35,652 bases of DNA from Candidatus Tantalella remota (GTDB lineage: Bacteria > Omnitrophota > Gorgyraeia > Tantalellales > Tantalellaceae): contig JAVCCB010000045.1 in NCBI GenBank assembly GCA_030765685.1, positions 1-35,652 on the forward strand, written 5' to 3'. This document shows positions 6,433-27,390 of this stretch, in pieces; position 1 is the first letter of the stretch, and every line of letters starts with the position of its first letter. Under the pieces are notes generated by a model that did no database searches, was not told the origin of the DNA, and saw only the letters and a list, made by a program, of their open reading frames with translations. The translations under genes and the position numbers were made by a program.

Positions 6433-6436
6433 TCGC

Positions 6437-6520
6437 GTAGTTAGATTCTAGATTCTTGATTCTCGTCCAGATTTAACTAGTAACTAGTATCTAGCATCAA
6501 GCATCAAGCATCGAGCTGAA
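6437..6520 (+). repeat. Heptad-phased intergenic array (copy 1 of a duplicated block)
   Basis: Five bases after the metH stop begins a run of degenerate 7-bp units: gtagtta, gattcta, gattctt, gattctc on the left, and agtatct, agcatca, agcatcg on the right, all in one phase from 6437 to about 6513. The left gattct(c) units are near reverse complements of the right (g)agcatc units, so the block can fold back on itself with G-U pairs. A second copy lies at 6720-6790. Confidence 0.8.
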
Positions 6521-6530
6521 TATTGACATG

Positions 6531-6617
6531 AGGACTGCAAGGTGCCCCGTGCTCAAACATGCTTTAACCTCGCTTCGCTCCGTTAAAGAACTGCGCGCGG
6601 GACAACCTTGCAGTCCT
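6531..6617 (+). repeat. Nested hairpin element between metH and the DUF6485 gene
   Basis: Exact 13-base arms aggactgcaaggt (6531-6543) and accttgcagtcct (6605-6617) enclose a second exact inverted repeat, ctttaac / gttaaag, whose loop is ctcgcttcgctcc. The 87-bp unit could be a structured RNA, a terminator lacking a T run, or a mobile palindrome. A truncated copy at about 6799-6873 keeps the inner hairpin but has lost the outer right arm, and its left arm has changed bases. Confidence 0.7.
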
Positions 6618-6654
6618 TGAGACGAGGCTTTTTCAGGTCCGACTAAAAGAGTAG

Positions 6655-6691: not shown

Positions 6692-6719
6692 TGCGGTAAG
6701 GCGGAATACTGAGCACGTA

Positions 6720-6873
6720 TCTATATTCTTGATTCTGGATTCTTGATTCTCGTCCAGATTTAACTAGTATCTAGCATCAAGCATCGAGCTGAATATTGAC
6801 ATGAGGATTGCGAGGTGCCCCGTGCTCAAACATGCTTTAACCTCGCTTCGCTCCGTTAAAGAACTGCGCGCGA
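6720..6873 (+). repeat. Second copy of the heptad array plus hairpin block
   Basis: Repeats the metH-downstream block: the phrase cgtccagatttaactagta occurs at 6464 and 6751, and the gagctgaatattgacatgag junction at 6513 and 6786. The second copy lacks 14 bases present in the first, one heptad in each of two runs. Similarity stops after gcgcgcg at about 6872. Confidence 0.8.
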
Positions 6874-6884
6874 CATTAGGAACA

Positions 6885-7190: not shown

Positions 7191-7196
7191 AAGAAA

Positions 7197-7265
7197 GTAT
7201 CGGGTCCTGAGTACCGAGTATCGAGTTTTTGATACCCGATACCCGGTCCCCGATACTCGGTACTA
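7197..7265 (+). repeat. Heptad-phased hairpin ending three bases before the mnmG start
   Basis: Left units gtatcgg, gtcctga, gtaccga, gtatcga (7197-7224) and right units gataccc, gataccc, ggtcccc, gatactc, ggtacta (7231-7265) flank a six-base loop (gttttt). A 14-base exact inverted repeat joins 7210-7223 and 7251-7264. The array fills the gap between the DUF6485 stop and the mnmG ATG almost completely. Confidence 0.85.
7229..7257 (+). promoter_or_regulatory. Candidate sigma-70 promoter for mnmG inside the heptad array
   Basis: TTGATA at 7229-7234, a 17-base spacer, and GATACT at 7252-7257 resemble a -35/-10 pair. Transcription would start about 5 bases before the mnmG ATG at 7269, which has no Shine-Dalgarno sequence. 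The hexamers are made of the repeat units themselves, so the match could be incidental. Confidence 0.4.
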
Positions 7266-7268
7266 ATC

Positions 7269-9119
7269 ATGGCGAACAAATACTCAGTTATAATTGTCGG
7301 CGGAGGTCATGCCGGATGCGAGGCGGCTCTCGCGTCCGCGCGGATGGGTCTTTCTACGCTTCTTATTACGATGAAGAAAGAGGCGATAGGGTACACTTCG
7401 TGCAACCCGTCTATCGGAGGCGTAGGTAAGGGGCAGCTCGTCAAGGAAGTGGACGCTCTCGGCGGCGAGATGGGAAAAGCGGCTGACGCGGCCTGTATAC
7501 AATACCGCATGCTCAATTCTTCCAAAGGATATGCCGCGAGGTCTTCCAGGATGCAGATAGACAGGAAAGTATACAACGCGTACATGAATGATAAGATCCT
7601 CGCGCAGGAAGGGCTTGATGTCGTCGAAGACGAAGTCGAAGAGGTGATAGTAGCGGCCGGTAAGTGCGAAGGAGTGCGGGTGGCGTCAGGGGAGGAGTTT
7701 CTTTCTTCTAATGTCGTTCTTACGACGGGCACGTTCATGAACGGGACCATACATATTGGCCTGAAACATTCGCCGGGCGGGCGCATAGGCGAGGAGCCTT
7801 CCGGGAAGCTTTCGGGAAACCTGGCCGGCCTCGGGTTCGAGATAGGGACGCTTAAGACCGGGACCCCCGCGAGGATCGACGGCAGGACGATAGATTTTTC
7901 CCTTACGGAAGAGCAGCCCGGAGACGCGGCGGTGATCCCGTTTTCTTTTTCTTCGCTGGCGGTGCCGCTTGAGCAGAAGCCCTGTTATCTTACCCGGACC
8001 AATGCCGAAACTCACGAGATAATCCGCGGAGCGCTTGACCGGTCGCCGCTTTATTCGGGAAAGATACAGTCAACCGGTGTGAGATACTGTCCGTCAATAG
8101 AAGATAAGGTGGTCAGGTTTCCCGAGAGGGAGTCTCACGTTGTGTTCCTGGAACCCGAAGGCCTGGATTCGGACGAATATTATCCCAACGGTATATCCAC
8201 AAGTCTCCCGGTGGACGTACAGGAGAGTCTTATCCATAGCATAAAAGGCCTGGAGAACACGAAAATAAATACTCCGGCATATGGCATAGAATATGATTAT
8301 GTGGAACCGACACAGCTAGACGCTATGCTACAGACAAAAAAAGTCGAAGGACTTTTTATAGCCGGCCAGATAAACGGTACTACCGGATATGAAGAAGCGG
8401 CGGCGCTGGGGCTTATGGCGGGGATAAATGCCGCACGCAAGGCAAAAGGGGAAGAGCCAGTGGTCCTCGAAAGGTCACAGGCATATATCGGAGTACTCAT
8501 AGACGACCTGGTAACAAAAGGAACAAAAGAACCGTACAGGATGTTCACTTCGCGTGTGGAATACAGGATAGTGATACGTGAAGATAATGCTGATACCCGT
8601 CTTTCCAATATCGCGTATGACCTGGGACTCTCGGGAGAAGATGCTGTGGCGAAGGTAAAAGAAAAAGAGAAGAATGTGGCAAGAGAGATAAAGAGGCTGA
8701 ACTCCACTGAAATAAAGGCTGATAGCGCTCTCCTTAAGGAAAAGGGTATAGAGATCGACGGCCGTATTTCTCTGGGAAAACTATTGAAAAGGCCTGACGT
8801 AAGTTATGACGATGTCTCCGGAGATAGAGAGGGTGAAGAGCTGTCTTATTACGAGAAAGTACAGCTGGAAGTCGACATCAAATACGCGGGGTATATTGAG
8901 CGGGAGCTTGCCAGGATAAAAAAGTTCTCTGACCTGGAAAAGATACGGGTATCCGAGGATATGGATTATTCAGGTATAGAAGGTCTTTCAAACGAGATAA
9001 AAGAGAAACTGACAAGTGTAAGGCCTGTTACTCTGGGGCAGGCGTCGCGTGTCTCTGGCGTCACCCCGGCGGCGATATCGATTCTTATGGTGAAGATTAG
9101 CGCGATGAGGAGGAGATAA
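7269..9119 (+). CDS. mnmG: tRNA uridine-5-carboxymethylaminomethyl modification enzyme MnmG (GidA)
   Basis: FAD enzyme that with MnmE modifies U34 of certain tRNAs; cytosolic. The 616-residue length is normal for the family. The N-terminal dinucleotide fold is GGGHAGCEAALASARMG (from residue 10). Next are the family signatures CNPSIGGVGKGQLVKEVDALGG and YRMLNSSKGYAARSSRMQID, then GTFMNGTIHIG, FEIGTLKTGTPARIDG, GIEYDYVEPTQL and LFIAGQINGTTGYEEAAALG. The C-terminal helical domain ends with a typical 'qAsRisGvtPAais.l' segment. No ribosome site precedes the ATG: a heptad hairpin runs to three bases before it. mnmE is not in the window. Downstream the gene is separated from the radical SAM gene only by another heptad array. 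Confidence 0.97.
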   Translation: MANKYSVIIVGGGHAGCEAALASARMGLSTLLITMKKEAIGYTSCNPSIGGVGKGQLVKEVDALGGEMGKAADAACIQYRMLNSSKGYAARSSRMQIDRKVYNAYMNDKILAQEGLDVVEDEVEEVIVAAGKCEGVRVASGEEFLSSNVVLTTGTFMNGTIHIGLKHSPGGRIGEEPSGKLSGNLAGLGFEIGTLKTGTPARIDGRTIDFSLTEEQPGDAAVIPFSFSSLAVPLEQKPCYLTRTNAETHEIIRGALDRSPLYSGKIQSTGVRYCPSIEDKVVRFPERESHVVFLEPEGLDSDEYYPNGISTSLPVDVQESLIHSIKGLENTKINTPAYGIEYDYVEPTQLDAMLQTKKVEGLFIAGQINGTTGYEEAAALGLMAGINAARKAKGEEPVVLERSQAYIGVLIDDLVTKGTKEPYRMFTSRVEYRIVIREDNADTRLSNIAYDLGLSGEDAVAKVKEKEKNVAREIKRLNSTEIKADSALLKEKGIEIDGRISLGKLLKRPDVSYDDVSGDREGEELSYYEKVQLEVDIKYAGYIERELARIKKFSDLEKIRVSEDMDYSGIEGLSNEIKEKLTSVRPVTLGQASRVSGVTPAAISILMVKISAMRRR

Positions 9120-9122
9120 GTC

Positions 9123-9241
9123 GTAAACAGTAAACTGTAAACAGTGAACAGTATCCAGATGCTAGATGCTGGATTCTAGATGCTCGTAAAACTCAACGAG
9201 TATCTAGCATCGAGAATCGAGTATCAAGATAAGCGAGCACA
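9123..9241 (+). repeat. Fully phase-locked 17-unit heptad array between mnmG and the radical SAM gene
   Basis: Seventeen consecutive 7-bp steps run from 9123 to 9241, the base before the next ATG. They pass from gtaaaca/gtaaact units through gatgcta, gatgctg and gattcta to gtatcta, gcatcga and gtatcaa without losing phase. The central part folds back around a loop near 9186-9197: the left gatgctcgt matches the right acgagtatc with one G-U pair. The four gtaaaca-type units recur at 13790-13817, at the end of the rlmD gene. Confidence 0.85.
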
Positions 9242-10141
9242 ATGAGCTATTATTTATTCAGCAAATATCTAAAAGAACAATTCGGACAGAAAGTTCGCCG
9301 GATAAGTCTGGACGCGGGGTTTACCTGTCCTAACAGGGATAGCTCAGGCGGGGGCGGTTGTATTTACTGCAACGAGCTGGGGTTTATCGAGGCGAGGGAA
9401 AAGGTTATCTCTTTAAAGGAACAGATAGAAGAGGGAATTCTTATAGCGCGTAAAAAGGGCGTAAACAGGTTCATGGCATACTTTCAGAACGCTACAAGCA
9501 CTAACGCTCCGGTCGAAGAACTTAAGAAGGCTTATGACAGTATCATCGGATACGATGATATAGTGGCACTGAGCATATCGACCCGTCCGGATTGTGTTGA
9601 AGATGTCAAGCTTGACCTGATAACGGGATACGCGAAAGACCGTGAAACGTGGATAGAGTACGGGCTTCAGACGATACATAACAGAACGCTGGAGAGGATA
9701 GGTCGCGGACATACGTTCGAACAGACAAAAGACGCTATTGAAAGGACCGCTGCCAGAGGAATTAAAGTCGGCGTACATGTAATACTGGGGCTCTCCGGGG
9801 AATCGCGGGAAGATATGATAGCTACGGCCAGGGAAGTATCACGGCTTCCCGTCAACGGCGTGAAGCTGCATGTTTTTCAGGTTCTCTCGGACACCCCGCT
9901 GGAGAAGATGTATGCCGACGGAGAAATAGACCTTATGACACGCGACGAATATGTCGCCGCCGCTTGCGATTTTTTGGAGAACATTTCTGCCGACCGTGTC
10001 ATTTTGAGGCTTGTCTCCGACTCCAGGGAGGAATATTTGATAGGGCCGGAATGGACGAACGATAAGCTGTCAGTAATAGCGGAGGTAAAGAAAGAATTTG
10101 CTTCACGGGGTACTTATCAGGGGAGCTCTTCCACTGTCTAA
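9242..10141 (+). CDS. TIGR01212/YhcC-family radical SAM protein
   Basis: A 299-residue radical SAM protein of the YhcC group (TIGR01212), which is related to Elp3-like enzymes. The cluster cysteines are Cys29, Cys40 and Cys43 in CPNRDSSGGGGCIYC, a CX10CX2C spacing typical of this group. Other signatures are YFQNATSTNAP, ALSISTRPDCV, WIEYGLQTIHNRTLERIGRGH and GVKLHVFQVLSDTPL. The substrate is not established. The ATG has only a weak GCGAG-like site upstream because the leader is a heptad array that ends at the start codon. About 100 bases separate its stop from the next gene. Confidence 0.92.
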   Translation: MSYYLFSKYLKEQFGQKVRRISLDAGFTCPNRDSSGGGGCIYCNELGFIEAREKVISLKEQIEEGILIARKKGVNRFMAYFQNATSTNAPVEELKKAYDSIIGYDDIVALSISTRPDCVEDVKLDLITGYAKDRETWIEYGLQTIHNRTLERIGRGHTFEQTKDAIERTAARGIKVGVHVILGLSGESREDMIATAREVSRLPVNGVKLHVFQVLSDTPLEKMYADGEIDLMTRDEYVAAACDFLENISADRVILRLVSDSREEYLIGPEWTNDKLSVIAEVKKEFASRGTYQGSSSTV

Positions 10142-12404: not shown

Positions 12405-12412
12405 TAGCAAGC

Positions 12413-12615
12413 GTCATCCCCGCATGCTCTAAGCGGGGATCTCGTAAGAATGACCACTTTTATGTGATCCCGGATATCCGCTATCCTCCTTCGTTAAAAC
12501 TATGGCGGACAGGAAGCGGATTCCGGGATGACGTCTTGATTCCCGCTTCGCCGAAGCCCTCTGGCTTTTGGCACTTCCTCGGGGGCCTTTACCCCTTGGT
12601 CGCGCGGGAATGACG
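12413..12615 (+). repeat. Dispersed palindromic repeats between the receiver and rlmD
   Basis: Two abutting palindromic units. The first, about 12413-12533, begins cgtcatccccgc and ends ccgggatgacg. The second, 12538-12615, has ends gattcccgc and gcgggaatgacg. The second occurs inverted at 13933-14010 on the other side of rlmD, with 72 of 78 bases the same. No gene is visible in this gap. Confidence 0.8.
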
Positions 12616-12640
12616 TCTGCTACTCTAACTTAGGAGAAAT

Positions 12641-13807
12641 ATGACACAACAATTAACAACAGAAATATATTCGCTGGCATTCGGCGGGCAGGGCGTAGGC
12701 AAGGTAGACGGGAAAGTCTGTTTTGTGACAGGAGCTCTTCCCGGAGAGAAAGTCGTTTTCGACGTCGAGAAGGACACAGCCCGGTACGCTTCGGGGAAAG
12801 TCGTCGAGATATTGACCCCATCAAGCGACAGGACGGAACCCGAGTGTCCTTATTACGGCAGATGCGGGGGGTGTCAGCTGCAGCATATTACTTATGAAAA
12901 GGAACTTTTCTATAAGAAGCAGCAGGTGGCTGAACTCCTGGGCCGTATCGGAGGAATAAAGGATATAGAGATACCCGAGATCGTAGCGTCGAAAGAGCCG
13001 TATAATTACAGGACCTCTGTTACTTTGCATGACGCGGGAGGCGGGTGCGGTTATTACGCGATAGACGGAAAGACCGTTATGAAGATAGACAGGTGCTCGG
13101 TAGCTACAGAGGCGATAAACAGCTATCTGGAGGGAATGACTAATGAGAAAAAGGCGGAGAGGGTCACCCTGAAATCTGATCATGCCGGCAAAGTCTGGTC
13201 TTCGGAAAGTACCGGGGAACGGTTCTTTTTTGATGAGTTCAGGGGAAATGAGATCTGTCTGTCTACAAAAGGGTTCTCCCAGCCAAATAGGCACATAGCC
13301 GAGAAAATAGTTGAGACTATCGAGGAATGGATCGGCCCGGACTGCGGCGATACCGTTTTTTTCGACCTCTATTGCGGCGTCGGGTTCTTCAGTTTTCTTC
13401 TTAAGAACGACTTTCATTCACGTATCGGTATAGATTCGAGCCGGATATCGATCGATTGTGCCAAGACGACATCGGCGAAGAACGGCAGAAAGGACGTGAA
13501 GTTTTACAAGTCCGACGCCGAAGAAGCTTTTTTCTCGTTATTCGAACGCTCGAAACGTGAGAGGAACATGATCCTTATAGATCCGCCGAGAAAAGGGCTC
13601 AACGGGGATTTCATAAAGAAGCTTAAAGAGATGACCGGAGCCGAGAAGATGTATTATCTTTCATGTGATCCCGCGCGTCTCGCGAGGGACATAAAGGTGA
13701 TCACGGATGAAAACGCGTGGAAGCTTGGCAGGATACGCGTTTTTGATATGTTCCCGAGGACGAAGCATATTGAGACGTTGGTGGAGTTGGTAAACAGTAA
13801 ACTGTAA
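12641..13807 (+). CDS. rlmD: 23S rRNA (uracil-5-)-methyltransferase, RlmD/RumA type
   Basis: A 388-residue SAM-dependent methyltransferase of the TrmA/RumA family; cytosolic, acts on rRNA (or tRNA for TrmA-like members). An N-terminal TRAM domain (1-60) is followed by the 4Fe-4S ligands Cys69, Cys75 and Cys78 (CPYYGRCGGC) and a fourth Cys near residue 152. The SAM site is DLYCGVGFFS, then DPPRKGL, and the catalytic Cys342 is in YLSCDPARLARD; the terminal HIETLVEL carries the conserved Glu. The TTAGGAGA ribosome site is clear. RlmD and TrmA cannot be separated with certainty from sequence alone; the TRAM plus Fe-S layout favours the RumA branch. The last residues (VNSKL) are encoded by intergenic-type heptad units. 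Confidence 0.9.
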   Translation: MTQQLTTEIYSLAFGGQGVGKVDGKVCFVTGALPGEKVVFDVEKDTARYASGKVVEILTPSSDRTEPECPYYGRCGGCQLQHITYEKELFYKKQQVAELLGRIGGIKDIEIPEIVASKEPYNYRTSVTLHDAGGGCGYYAIDGKTVMKIDRCSVATEAINSYLEGMTNEKKAERVTLKSDHAGKVWSSESTGERFFFDEFRGNEICLSTKGFSQPNRHIAEKIVETIEEWIGPDCGDTVFFDLYCGVGFFSFLLKNDFHSRIGIDSSRISIDCAKTTSAKNGRKDVKFYKSDAEEAFFSLFERSKRERNMILIDPPRKGLNGDFIKKLKEMTGAEKMYYLSCDPARLARDIKVITDENAWKLGRIRVFDMFPRTKHIETLVELVNSKL

Positions 13808-13929
13808 ACAGTGAAATGGAGTAGGGTACCGGGAATCGAGTACCGGGTATCGGGGGAGCGGGATCCCAGGGTATCAGAGGATCAGGGTATTGGGGACTAG
13901 GTTATCGGGATATCAGGGACTGAATACTC
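13790..13929 (+). repeat. Heptad array that begins inside rlmD, then shifts to an 8-bp step
   Basis: Units gtaaaca, gtaaact, gtaaaca, gtgaaat start at 13790, within the last codons of rlmD. The run continues as ggtaccg, ggaatcg, agtaccg, ggtatcg to about 13852. From 13861 the step looks like eight bases (ggatccca, gggtatca, gaggatca, gggtattg) to about 13923. No coding sequence is seen here. Confidence 0.7.
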
Positions 13930-13932
13930 GAA

Positions 13933-14059
13933 CGTCATTCCCGTGCGACCGAGGGGCAAAGGCTCCCGAGGAAGTGCCGAAAGCCAGAGGGCTTCGGTGA
14001 AGCGGGAATCACATAGAAGTAATAATTTTTATTGGATCCCCGCTTCCTCGGGGATGACG
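13933..14059 (+). repeat. Inverted copy of the 12538-12615 palindrome plus adjoining unit
   Basis: Bases 13933-14010 are the reverse complement of 12538-12615 with six differences, all transitions. A second short palindromic piece (ggatccccgcttcctcgggg) follows to 14059. Confidence 0.85.
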
Positions 14060-14080
14060 ATTATCCTTTTTACTTTAAGA

Positions 14081-14375
14081 GTGATCTAGATCCTTCGACT
14101 TGCTTCCGCCTTCGCTAAAGCTACGGCGGACAAGCCGGTCCCGACTTCGCCGAACTATTTTAGATCTATTTGGCTACGTCGGGCTTCGCGCTCGGGATGA
14201 CAGCACTTCTGTCATCCCGAGCGGAGTGCCCGACAAGTCCGCCGACTCATCCGCCGTAGCCAGATGAAACCTGAACAGCTTGGCGAAGGAGGAAGGCGGG
14301 ATGGCACGTAGTCGAGAAATCTAATATCGTCGGGTTCGGGTTATGTTCAGCCCCAACCGTAAACCCCTTTAACGA
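14081..14375 (+). repeat. Dispersed GTCATCCCGAGCGG-type repeat, copy 1
   Basis: Contains atgacagcacttctgtcatcccgagcggagtgcccg and, after an extra stretch, cacgtagtcgagaaatctaat and ccccaaccgtaaacccctttaacg (given here only in part). The same blocks recur in the same order at 24345-24555 without the extra 14245-14310 stretch. Each copy precedes a short gene. This 620-base gap holds repeats only; I see no gene in it. Confidence 0.8.
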
Positions 14376-14384
14376 TTCCAAAGA

Positions 14385-14428
14385 CGTAACCGTACAACGA
14401 AAAACGATATACGAAACCCGGAGGCTAC
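14385..14428 (+). repeat. Short ACG-ending heptad run before the secreted protein gene
   Basis: Seven-base steps tacaacg, aaaaacg, atatacg, aaacccg run into the gaggct ribosome site. A related run (gtaaccg, attaacg, attgacg) precedes crcB at 24536-24556. Confidence 0.55.
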
Positions 14429-14429
14429 T

Positions 14430-14801: not shown

Positions 14802-14815
14802 GGGGTCGGAAAATA

Positions 14816-14995
14816 GCGTTTAGATAGACCACGGACGACAGACGACGGATTACCCATCAGGTAAAATCCAAATTACAAAATCCAAATGACAAATGAAATC
14901 CAAATCGTTAAACCCAAAATAGCTACTTTGGATTTTTGATTTTTGTGATTCTTTTGGATTTTGGGTTTAGAATTTTGGATTTATATTTCAACAGG
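14816..14995 (+). repeat. Heptad array plus C-type hairpin (copy 1) between convergent genes
   Basis: Units gcgttta, gatagac, cacggac, gacagac, gacggat run from 14816 and pass in phase into aatccaa, attacaa, aatccaa, atgacaa. After a loop (tagctac, about 14920) the other arm repeats ggattt-type units to about 14990. The 60-base arms pair imperfectly. Three more copies of the hairpin are at 22014, 26380 and 27243. Here it lies between convergent genes and could serve as a two-way terminator. Confidence 0.8.
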
Positions 14996-15009
14996 CATTC
15001 ATTGGTGAG

Positions 15010-20070: not shown

Positions 20071-20225
20071 CGGTAAGCTGGGAATAGATAATTGGGAATT
20101 GGGAATGGTGAAAAGCCGGGAATTGAGAATAGTGCCCCTGTTACAATTCCCTATTCCCCATTCACCCTTCCCCAAAATAGCTGCCTAGTGCTCCGCAACT
20201 GAATTCTATGTACTGAATACTGAAA
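20071..20225 (+). repeat. D-type heptad repeat, copy 1
   Basis: Units such as attggga, atggtga on the left and attccct, attcccc, attcacc on the right form a foldback (gggaattg at 20118-20125 with caattccc at 20144-20151). A second module of ctgaatt/ctgaata units follows. The same two modules in the same order occur at 25313-25431. No gene is seen between 19925 and 20326 apart from the terminator, this repeat and a promoter. Confidence 0.8.
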
Positions 20226-21277: not shown

Positions 21278-21282
21278 CAGCA

Positions 21283-21359
21283 GTACCGGGTTGTGGGTGT
21301 CGGGTACCGGGCAAGATCTCACGGTACCTGATCCTCGATACTCGATACTCGGTACAAAA
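21283..21359 (+). repeat. Eleven-unit phase-locked heptad array before the KDPG aldolase gene
   Basis: Units gtaccgg, gttgtgg, gtgtcgg, gtaccgg, then tcctcga, tactcga, tactcgg follow each other in one phase from 21283 to 21359; the ATG is at 21361. The left and right halves are partly reverse-complementary (gtaccg / cggtac at the ends). The last 13 bases, cgatactcggtac, are the same as those before mnmG. Confidence 0.85.
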
Positions 21360-21360
21360 T

Positions 21361-21993: not shown

Positions 21994-22013
21994 TTGACCA
22001 TAATGTAAGAGTA

Positions 22014-22191
22014 AAACCCAAATGTCAAAATCTAAATGACAAATGAAATCCCAATGACAAAATTCAAAACGCAGCGTCTTTGGATTTTTATGATTCCCTT
22101 GGATTTTGGGTTTAAGATTTAGGATTTAAATTTCAGCTAACGGCTGATCACTGATTACTGATGACTGATGACTAAAAATAGAGAGCTCAAG
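22014..22191 (+). repeat. C-type hairpin (copy 2) plus heptad array before exonuclease III
   Basis: aaacccaaatg...caaaatc arms fold back on ggattttgggttt arms around the loop gcagcgtc (about 22070-22080), ending near 22130. From 22136 a phase-locked run follows (gctaacg, gctgatc, actgatt, actgatg, actgatg, actaaaa) to the base before the ATG. Confidence 0.8.
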
Positions 22192-24291: not shown

Positions 24292-24344
24292 GTTGAAGGG
24301 TTACGGCTAGAGAAACGGTTGTCGTCATAGGGTTGCGTTTAAAC

Positions 24345-24555
24345 CATGGGCGCTTGTTAGATCCCTCGACTCGCTTTCGCCTTCGCTGAAGCTACGGCGG
24401 ACAAGCCGCTCGCTCGGGATGACACTACTTCTGTCATTTCGAGCGGAGTGCCCGAAAGGGCACGTAGTCGAGAAATCTAATATTGCTTGGTTGTGGTTTG
24501 GCCCCAACCGTAAACCCTTTAACGATTCCAGAGACGTAACCGATTAACGATTGAC
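24345..24555 (+). repeat. Dispersed GTCATCCCGAGCGG-type repeat, copy 2
   Basis: Begins tagatccctcgactcgc and its inner arm returns as gtagtcgagaaatcta, a long imperfect palindrome; then gccccaaccgtaaaccc and ttaacgattcc, and a short ACG heptad run (24536-24556) before the crcB leader. Colinear with 14081-14400. Confidence 0.8.
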
Positions 24556-24570
24556 GTAAGTTGAGGAACT

Positions 24571-25299: not shown

Positions 25300-25312
25300 A
25301 GGAGAAGGGAAT

Positions 25313-25431
25313 AGAGCCGGAAGCTGGGAATTGAGAATAGTGCCCATGTTACAATTCCCTATTCCCCATTCACCCTTCCCCCAAATAGCTCCCGGTGCTC
25401 AGCAACTGAATACTTAATACTGAATACAAAC
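25313..25431 (+). repeat. D-type heptad repeat, copy 2, reaching the DD-carboxypeptidase start
   Basis: Shares the core from 25326 (gggaattgagaatagtgccc onward) with 20118-20175, then the ctcagcaactgaat module. The last four heptads, aactgaa, tacttaa, tactgaa, tacaaac, fill 25404-25431 and the ATG follows directly at 25432. Confidence 0.85.
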
Positions 25432-26337: not shown

Positions 26338-26505
26338 CGTTTAGTCGACAGACCGCAGATGACGGACCACCTGCCATATTAAATCCAAATGAAAAAATCC
26401 AAATGACAAAAGAAATCCAAATGACAAAACTCAAAAGTAGCGTTTCTTTAGGATTTTGGATTTTTAAGATTCCTTTGGATCTTGGGCTTAGGATTTTGGA
26501 TTTAT
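26323..26505 (+). repeat. Heptad array starting inside dacA-like CDS, plus C-type hairpin (copy 3)
   Basis: Units gcgtata, gcggata, gcgttta, gtcgaca, gaccgca, gatgacg, gaccacc run in one phase from 26323, the first 15 bases being the end of the carboxypeptidase gene. They lead into the aaatccaaatg arm of a C-type hairpin with loop agtagcgt (about 26435-26445) and return arm to about 26505. Confidence 0.85.
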
Positions 26506-27182: not shown

Positions 27183-27390
27183 CATAGCTGATAGGTGATA
27201 GGATTCGTCCGCAGGTCACGGTTCACGGACCACCTGTCAGATCAAATCCAAATGTCAAAATCCAAATGAGAAATGAAATCCAAATGACAAAACCCAAAAG
27301 TAGCGTTCCTTTAGGGTTTTGGATTTTTATGATTCTTTTGGATTTTGGGCTTAGGATTTTGAATTTCAATTTCTACGAGCATCTAGAATC
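27183..27390 (+). repeat. Heptad array plus C-type hairpin (copy 4)
   Basis: Units catagct, gataggt, gatagga lead, in phase, through acggttc, acggacc, acctgtc to atccaaa, tgtcaaa, atccaaa and the C-type hairpin (loop agtagcgt near 27300). The return arm ends near 27370, then a gagcatctagaatct fragment of the metH-type repeat. The promoter of the glycogen gene starts 26 bases later. Confidence 0.8.

Follow-up and report, generated by a model that had tools for sequence, protein, structure and literature searches.

Intergenic heptamer repeats are already a known kind of bacterial sequence (PMC4679880, PMC4692102 and PMC6344855). Heptamers are the most abundant intergenic tandem repeats, and the dominance of period 7 among bacterial intergenic repeats is a published puzzle, with no clear clue to function (PMC6344855). 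In Xanthomonas, a preference for arrays of four units has been attributed to G-quadruplexes (PMC4692102). The hypothesis that heptamers arise by slippage goes back to Mrazek 2007, as cited in PMC4679880 and PMC4692102, and cold-shock-type proteins have been suggested as heptamer readers (PMC4679880).

Here we describe a spacer of this kind between mnmG and mnmL in a 35,652-nt stretch of DNA from Candidatus Tantalella remota, referred to here as the window. Upstream, mnmG (7269-9119; TIGR00136 equivalog, 815 bits) ends in a TAA stop codon at 9117-9119, and downstream, also on the forward strand, lies the tRNA-modification radical SAM gene mnmL/ytqA (9242-10141; TIGR01212 equivalog, 332 bits). 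The 122 nt between them (9120-9241) divide into 3 + 28 + 7 + 28 + 12 + 28 + 16. After a GTC lead-in (9120-9122) comes a first block of four GTRAACW units (GTAAACA, GTAAACT, GTAAACA, GTGAACA; 9123-9150), recognised by its lag-7 identity and by its recurrence throughout the genome. It is joined by the 7-nt linker GTATCCA (9151-9157), which is 6 or 7 nt long in other copies of the element, to a second block of four GATNCTN units (GATGCTA, GATGCTG, GATTCTA, GATGCTC; 9158-9185), identified from the sequence and from word counts. This second block is the 5' arm of a predicted stem-loop, which spans 9152-9231 in the fold of the spacer. Its loop region, GTAAAACTCAAC (12 nt; 9186-9197), differs in length among copies, and its 3' arm, placed by the fold and by comparison of loops, consists of four GATNCTN units on the reverse strand (9198-9225; GAGTATC, TAGCATC, GAGAATC and GAGTATC when read on the forward strand). 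A 16-nt tail, AAGATAAGCGAGCACA (9226-9241), contains no repeat word and reaches the start codon. Lag-7 identity across the spacer is 0.59, compared to a mean of 0.26 over lags, and the lag-7 score of its first 37 nt was matched in none of 2000 shuffles; as in other heptameric tandem repeats, units of seven stand well above chance. The spacer has a minimum free energy of -42.6 kcal/mol (z = -6.24), equalled by none of 200 shuffles.

An earlier note on this DNA had read the spacer as 17 heptads in a single phase from stop codon to start codon, carried across the loop and through three word families. The arithmetic is correct, as 9123-9241 comprises 119 nt, or 17 × 7, and directly abuts the ATG at 9242. 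Twelve of the 17 steps do lie in the repeat blocks (4 + 4 + 4), but the other five (GTATCCA, GTAAAAC, TCAACGA, GATAAGC and GAGCACA) are made up of linker, loop and tail, and the supposed third family, gtatcga, is GATNCTN on the opposite strand, leaving two. As a run of period 7 may be divided in seven ways, depending on the frame chosen, being ‘in phase’ is meaningful for two different words only if the connector between them is constant. In this genome, five copies of the element have linkers of 6, 7, 7, 7 and 6 nt between GTRAACW and GATNCTN, and eight GATNCTN hairpins have inner distances of 14, 14, 15, 15, 15, 19, 22 and 23 nt; in homologous copies, then, the single frame breaks at both the linker and the loop. 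Phase does survive a change of word within some arrays, where one word drifts into another in step, by substitution (for example TTCCCTATTCCCTGTTTACCGTTTACAG, locus L046, 9380-9453), but not across connectors. G occupies frame position 1 in 16 of the 17 steps. Among 60 heptad-containing co-directional spacers, length modulo 7 shows no preference (counts of 8, 6, 9, 9, 15, 5 and 8; chi-square p = 0.30). Tail and loop (16 + 12 nt) add up to 28 by coincidence, and a flush end at the ATG has a chance of 1 in 7. The continuous 17-step frame is thus largely coincidence, an accident of connector lengths.

We also compared orthologous spacers. In the 14 other genomes that we found to have mnmG next to mnmL, the gap between the two genes ranges from -23 nt (an overlap) to 290 nt, and in none of these 14 does the spacer have a heptad block in common with ours. 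On this ground a conserved local element was rejected. Behind mnmG in three relatives (loci L011, L014 and L021), stretches that may resemble heptads are weak and reach only p of about 0.04-0.11, with p = 0.009 at L015; we make no claim for them. As the two genes overlap or stand 2-25 nt apart in several genera, the ancestral operon was probably tight, and the 122 nt would have been inserted in this lineage. Near the end of mnmG, AGGAGGAG (9108-9115) may be the former Shine-Dalgarno/ribosome-binding site of mnmL, now about 126 nt from the ATG and separated from it by the inserted spacer.

Relatives within the family have few heptads, and four consecutive GTRAACW units occur in only 2 of 145 genomes of the phylum, at 20 sequence windows in this genome and at one in the other. 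Outside the phylum, the matches listed, assigned to groups by their record titles, come from Cyanobacteria, Bacteroidetes, Chloroflexi, Acidobacteriota, Planctomycetota, Thermodesulfovibrionales, Elusimicrobia, Spirochaetaceae, Proteobacteria and others. These distant loci hold many other heptad words, and period 7 is found there 119 times versus at most 19 for any period that is not a multiple of 7; their four-unit mode is weaker, in small samples. In a distant phylum, a Chloroflexi MAG (L074, 6321-6401) has a hairpin whose two heptad arms, each of 36 nt, are fully complementary (AATTGGGAATTGGAAG... / ...CTTCCAATTCCCAATT).

We sampled the genome in stretches. In a first sample of 371 kb, which was chosen by hits and is biased accordingly, intergenic tandem segments number 89 at lag 7, 10 at lag 8 and none at lags 4, 5, 9, 10 and 13; lags 14 and 21 show harmonics, and coding DNA has 10 lag-7 arrays against the 89 in intergenic DNA. 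A second sample, of contigs picked without hits, gave 13 segments at lag 7 versus 0-2 at every other lag in the range 4-13; two of its contigs (L242 and L249) each produced one spurious whole-contig segment, look masked, and were left out of the word-based counts of array length. Sevens independent of sequence are a genome-wide fact here; the pattern is unusual, but the mnmG-mnmL spacer is an ordinary instance of it. As with heptameric simple-sequence repeats, the arrays are intergenic and occupy many sites per genome. They fall into about ten word families, and each family varies at only two or three of its seven positions. In 29 of 30 GTRAACW arrays these are positions 3 and 7; in GATNCTN they are 4 and 7. 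By simple ORF calls, which make the placement counts approximate, arrays lie after stop codons more often than before start codons (33/222 versus 15/220, p = 0.009), and those nearer a stop are purine-rich on the sense strand (0.66 versus 0.52, p = 4e-4).

The window itself contains more heptad spacers with other words, among them GTATCGG, AAATCCA, GGGAATA and CTGATGA (7191-7268, 14802-15009, 20079-20173, 21278-21360, 21994-22173, 25300-25431, 26338-26501 and 27186-27366). Many of these have inverted arms, and the AAATCCA hairpin occurs four times. A GTAAACA array at 13790-13815 overlaps the 3' end of a TRAM/tRNA (uracil-5-)-methyltransferase gene (12641-13807), whose TAA stop codon falls inside the array. 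A different dispersed repeat family, with ends GTCATCCCG / GGGATGAC and CGCCTTCGCTAAAGCTACGGCGGACAAG-like cores, occupies 12405-12640, 13808-14429 and 24292-24570.

The two words of our spacer also recur together. BLAST finds six copies of a composite of the GTRAACW and GATNCTN blocks, and we read five of these from end to end. The sequence after the composite depends on the site and may be an inverted block, an array of octads or something else. GATNCTN blocks at different sites share the flanks TTA/TCA...GTA and a similar order of units. Two duplicate hairpins in the window, about 280 nt apart (6433-6620 and 6710-6880), have nearly identical 3' flanks and differ by gaps of 7 and 14 nt in their heptad arms. 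Judging from this one duplicate pair, arrays can change by sevens; connectors do not. Between older, strongly diverged paralogs, gap lengths are not clearly in sevens. Elsewhere in the genome, a 117-nt unit is repeated in five tandem copies (L268, 1413-2004; G000:C1), in each of which a single GATNCTN block of four units precedes octad-like GGGGATCA/GGATATCA sequence, and another repeat, CTCCTTTGCCAAGGCTACGGCGGACAAG, apparently splits a GATNCTN block between its third and fourth unit (L272; G000:C30:4237).

We favor, with moderate confidence, a model in which the spacer consists of dispersed repeats, namely four-heptad modules that entered or grew in the conserved mnmG-mnmL operon. It draws on the dominance of lag-7 arrays in intergenic DNA, the peak of array length at four units, the recurring GATNCTN blocks and composite, the duplicate hairpins, the lack of the blocks in orthologous spacers and the preference of arrays for sites behind stop codons. 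Specifically, the GTRAACW and GATNCTN blocks, together with the inverted GATNCTN block, would have entered or grown in a short operon gap. Modules would be copied from site to site within the genome, roughly four heptads at a time, and would afterwards gain or lose whole heptads. The 7-nt step would then be a property of the process that makes or maintains arrays, not of the mnmG-mnmL locus, where the spacer would have no essential function. Against this model, neither a target-site duplication nor a moving enzyme could be tied to the modules, and the gaps between older paralogs do not clearly come in sevens. A reverse transcriptase was considered as heptad generator and rejected, as the genome has no RVT_1 match.

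If heptads instead arise at each site by replication slippage, with a polymerase that favors 7-nt steps, then the spacer would have grown in place. This is a possible though unlikely origin. It fits the lead of period 7 for many unrelated words in many phyla, the duplicate pair that differs by 7 and 14 nt, and the Cyanothece strains with indels in 7-nt increments (PMC4679880). However, slippage predicts broad or decaying lengths. Across all families, we counted 67, 116, 27 and 10 arrays of three, four, five and six units, and in families whose words lack G-runs (GTNAACN, GATNCTN, AGTATNN and ACGANAT) arrays of three, four and five units number 19, 48 and 17; as array copies are not independent, the p-values of this four-unit peak (about 1e-4) can serve only as a guide. 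An exception at G000:C87:9192-9365, where GATACTN runs for about 25 units, is the sole long array of that word in the genome-wide listing. Slippage also sits poorly with variation that is restricted to two or three positions per word, and with GATNCTN blocks that have flanking bases and unit order in common between sites, as copies would.

A strict two-unit word count in another genome (G182) resembles simple decay, and the sharp four-unit mode is thus established only for the genome studied. For GATNCTN it could reflect a founder effect, yet other words share it. Our arrays prefer four units, as G-quadruplex heptamers do, but do not have a G-run in every unit; neither GTRAACW nor GATNCTN contains GGG. 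As G-run-free words peak at four too, a G-quadruplex cause of the preference fails here, and the sole published reason for four units that we found, G-quadruplex formation (PMC4692102), cannot hold for GTRAACW or GATNCTN. It is conceivable, if improbable, that the four-heptad block (about 28-31 nt), and not the single heptad, is the natural unit of bacterial heptamer DNA, and that some widespread machinery, tolerant of sequence, produces or reads 7-nt steps in sets of four. Such machinery would explain why arrays share a length, why the variable positions are fixed and why unrelated phyla have words in common.

Another reading makes the spacer a functional RNA hairpin in the mnmG-mnmL transcript (an attenuator, an RNA-stabilizing stem or a control of mnmL translation, for example). 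The strength of the predicted fold, the placement of arrays after stop codons, and the lack of a Shine-Dalgarno-like sequence directly before the mnmL ATG all speak for such a role. Nevertheless, an Rfam search of the window gave no match, and no intrinsic terminator-like site (stem plus T-run) lies within the spacer. Heptad spacers as a class fold no more than other spacers (p = 0.21), the variable positions of hairpin arms show no excess of compensatory pairing (12/56 observed versus 14.3 in shuffles), and the hairpin is missing from relatives. A general hairpin function was rejected on the class folding and the lack of covariation between arms, and we give a local RNA role in this transcript a slim chance.

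A further rival is a binding array, in which a putative protein would read one heptamer per protomer over four steps, and selection would preserve both the length of four units and the roughly five positions in contact with the protein. The fixed and free positions within each word do look like a footprint, as does the four-unit mode in unrelated words. But about ten very different words would require a highly tolerant reader or many readers, and one array has about 25 units; we consider this account very doubtful. A continuous seven-base ruler running from stop codon to start codon has the exact 17 × 7 and the recurrent G at frame position 1 in its favor, but we rejected it as almost certainly wrong on the single-base differences in linker and loop among copies and the absence of any modulo-7 skew, to which the five steps without a repeat word can be added.

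Collectively, our data are most consistent with dispersed four-heptad modules, and this genome, given its roughly ten words, its composites and its inverted pairs, is well suited to testing slippage, module copying and protein binding against one another. Among known mobile repeats, REP/REPIN palindromes are mobilized by Y1 (RAYT) transposases. Like the modules, they are small dispersed intergenic elements able to form hairpins; unlike theirs, the arms here are tandem heptads. The genome has two Y1 genes, around which we found no GATNCTN or GTRAACW block, but only an AGTATTY-type array near one of them. Thus, no cognate Y1 (RAYT) transposase is flanked by the element as in REP/REPIN, and no link between Y1 and the modules was found.

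Other close systems are found among described heptamers. The heptanucleotide repeats of Calothrix (STRR; reference 39 in PMC4692102) and the SPADE heptamer class (PMC6344855) resemble ours in being of period 7, intergenic, widespread and unexplained in function; in the available parts of these two sources, the accounts do not include the present lineage, the composite module or a four-unit mode in G-run-free words. The TAACTGA direct repeats of Beggiatoaceae, Cyanobacteria and Bacteroidetes (MacGregor 2015, PMC4679880) are likewise short intergenic heptamer arrays in distant lineages. Between strains, they vary by 7-nt increments; here, one duplicate pair within the genome differs by 7 and 14 nt. 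TAACTGA, however, is one word found mostly just upstream of start codons (PMC4679880), whereas here many words lie more often after stop codons.

Another close match is to the GGGNATC / GGGGAYT repeats of Xanthomonas and Nostoc (Rehm et al., 2015; PMC4692102). These, too, are intergenic heptamers that prefer four units, with conserved and variable positions in each unit, inverted pairs (in Xanthomonas) and a location near stop codons on the sense strand; the stop-codon placement and sense-strand purine richness that we observe agree with the Xanthomonas report (PMC4692102). What sets the present repeats apart from these is that their words are mostly without G-runs, that about ten families coexist in one genome, and that their blocks combine into composites.
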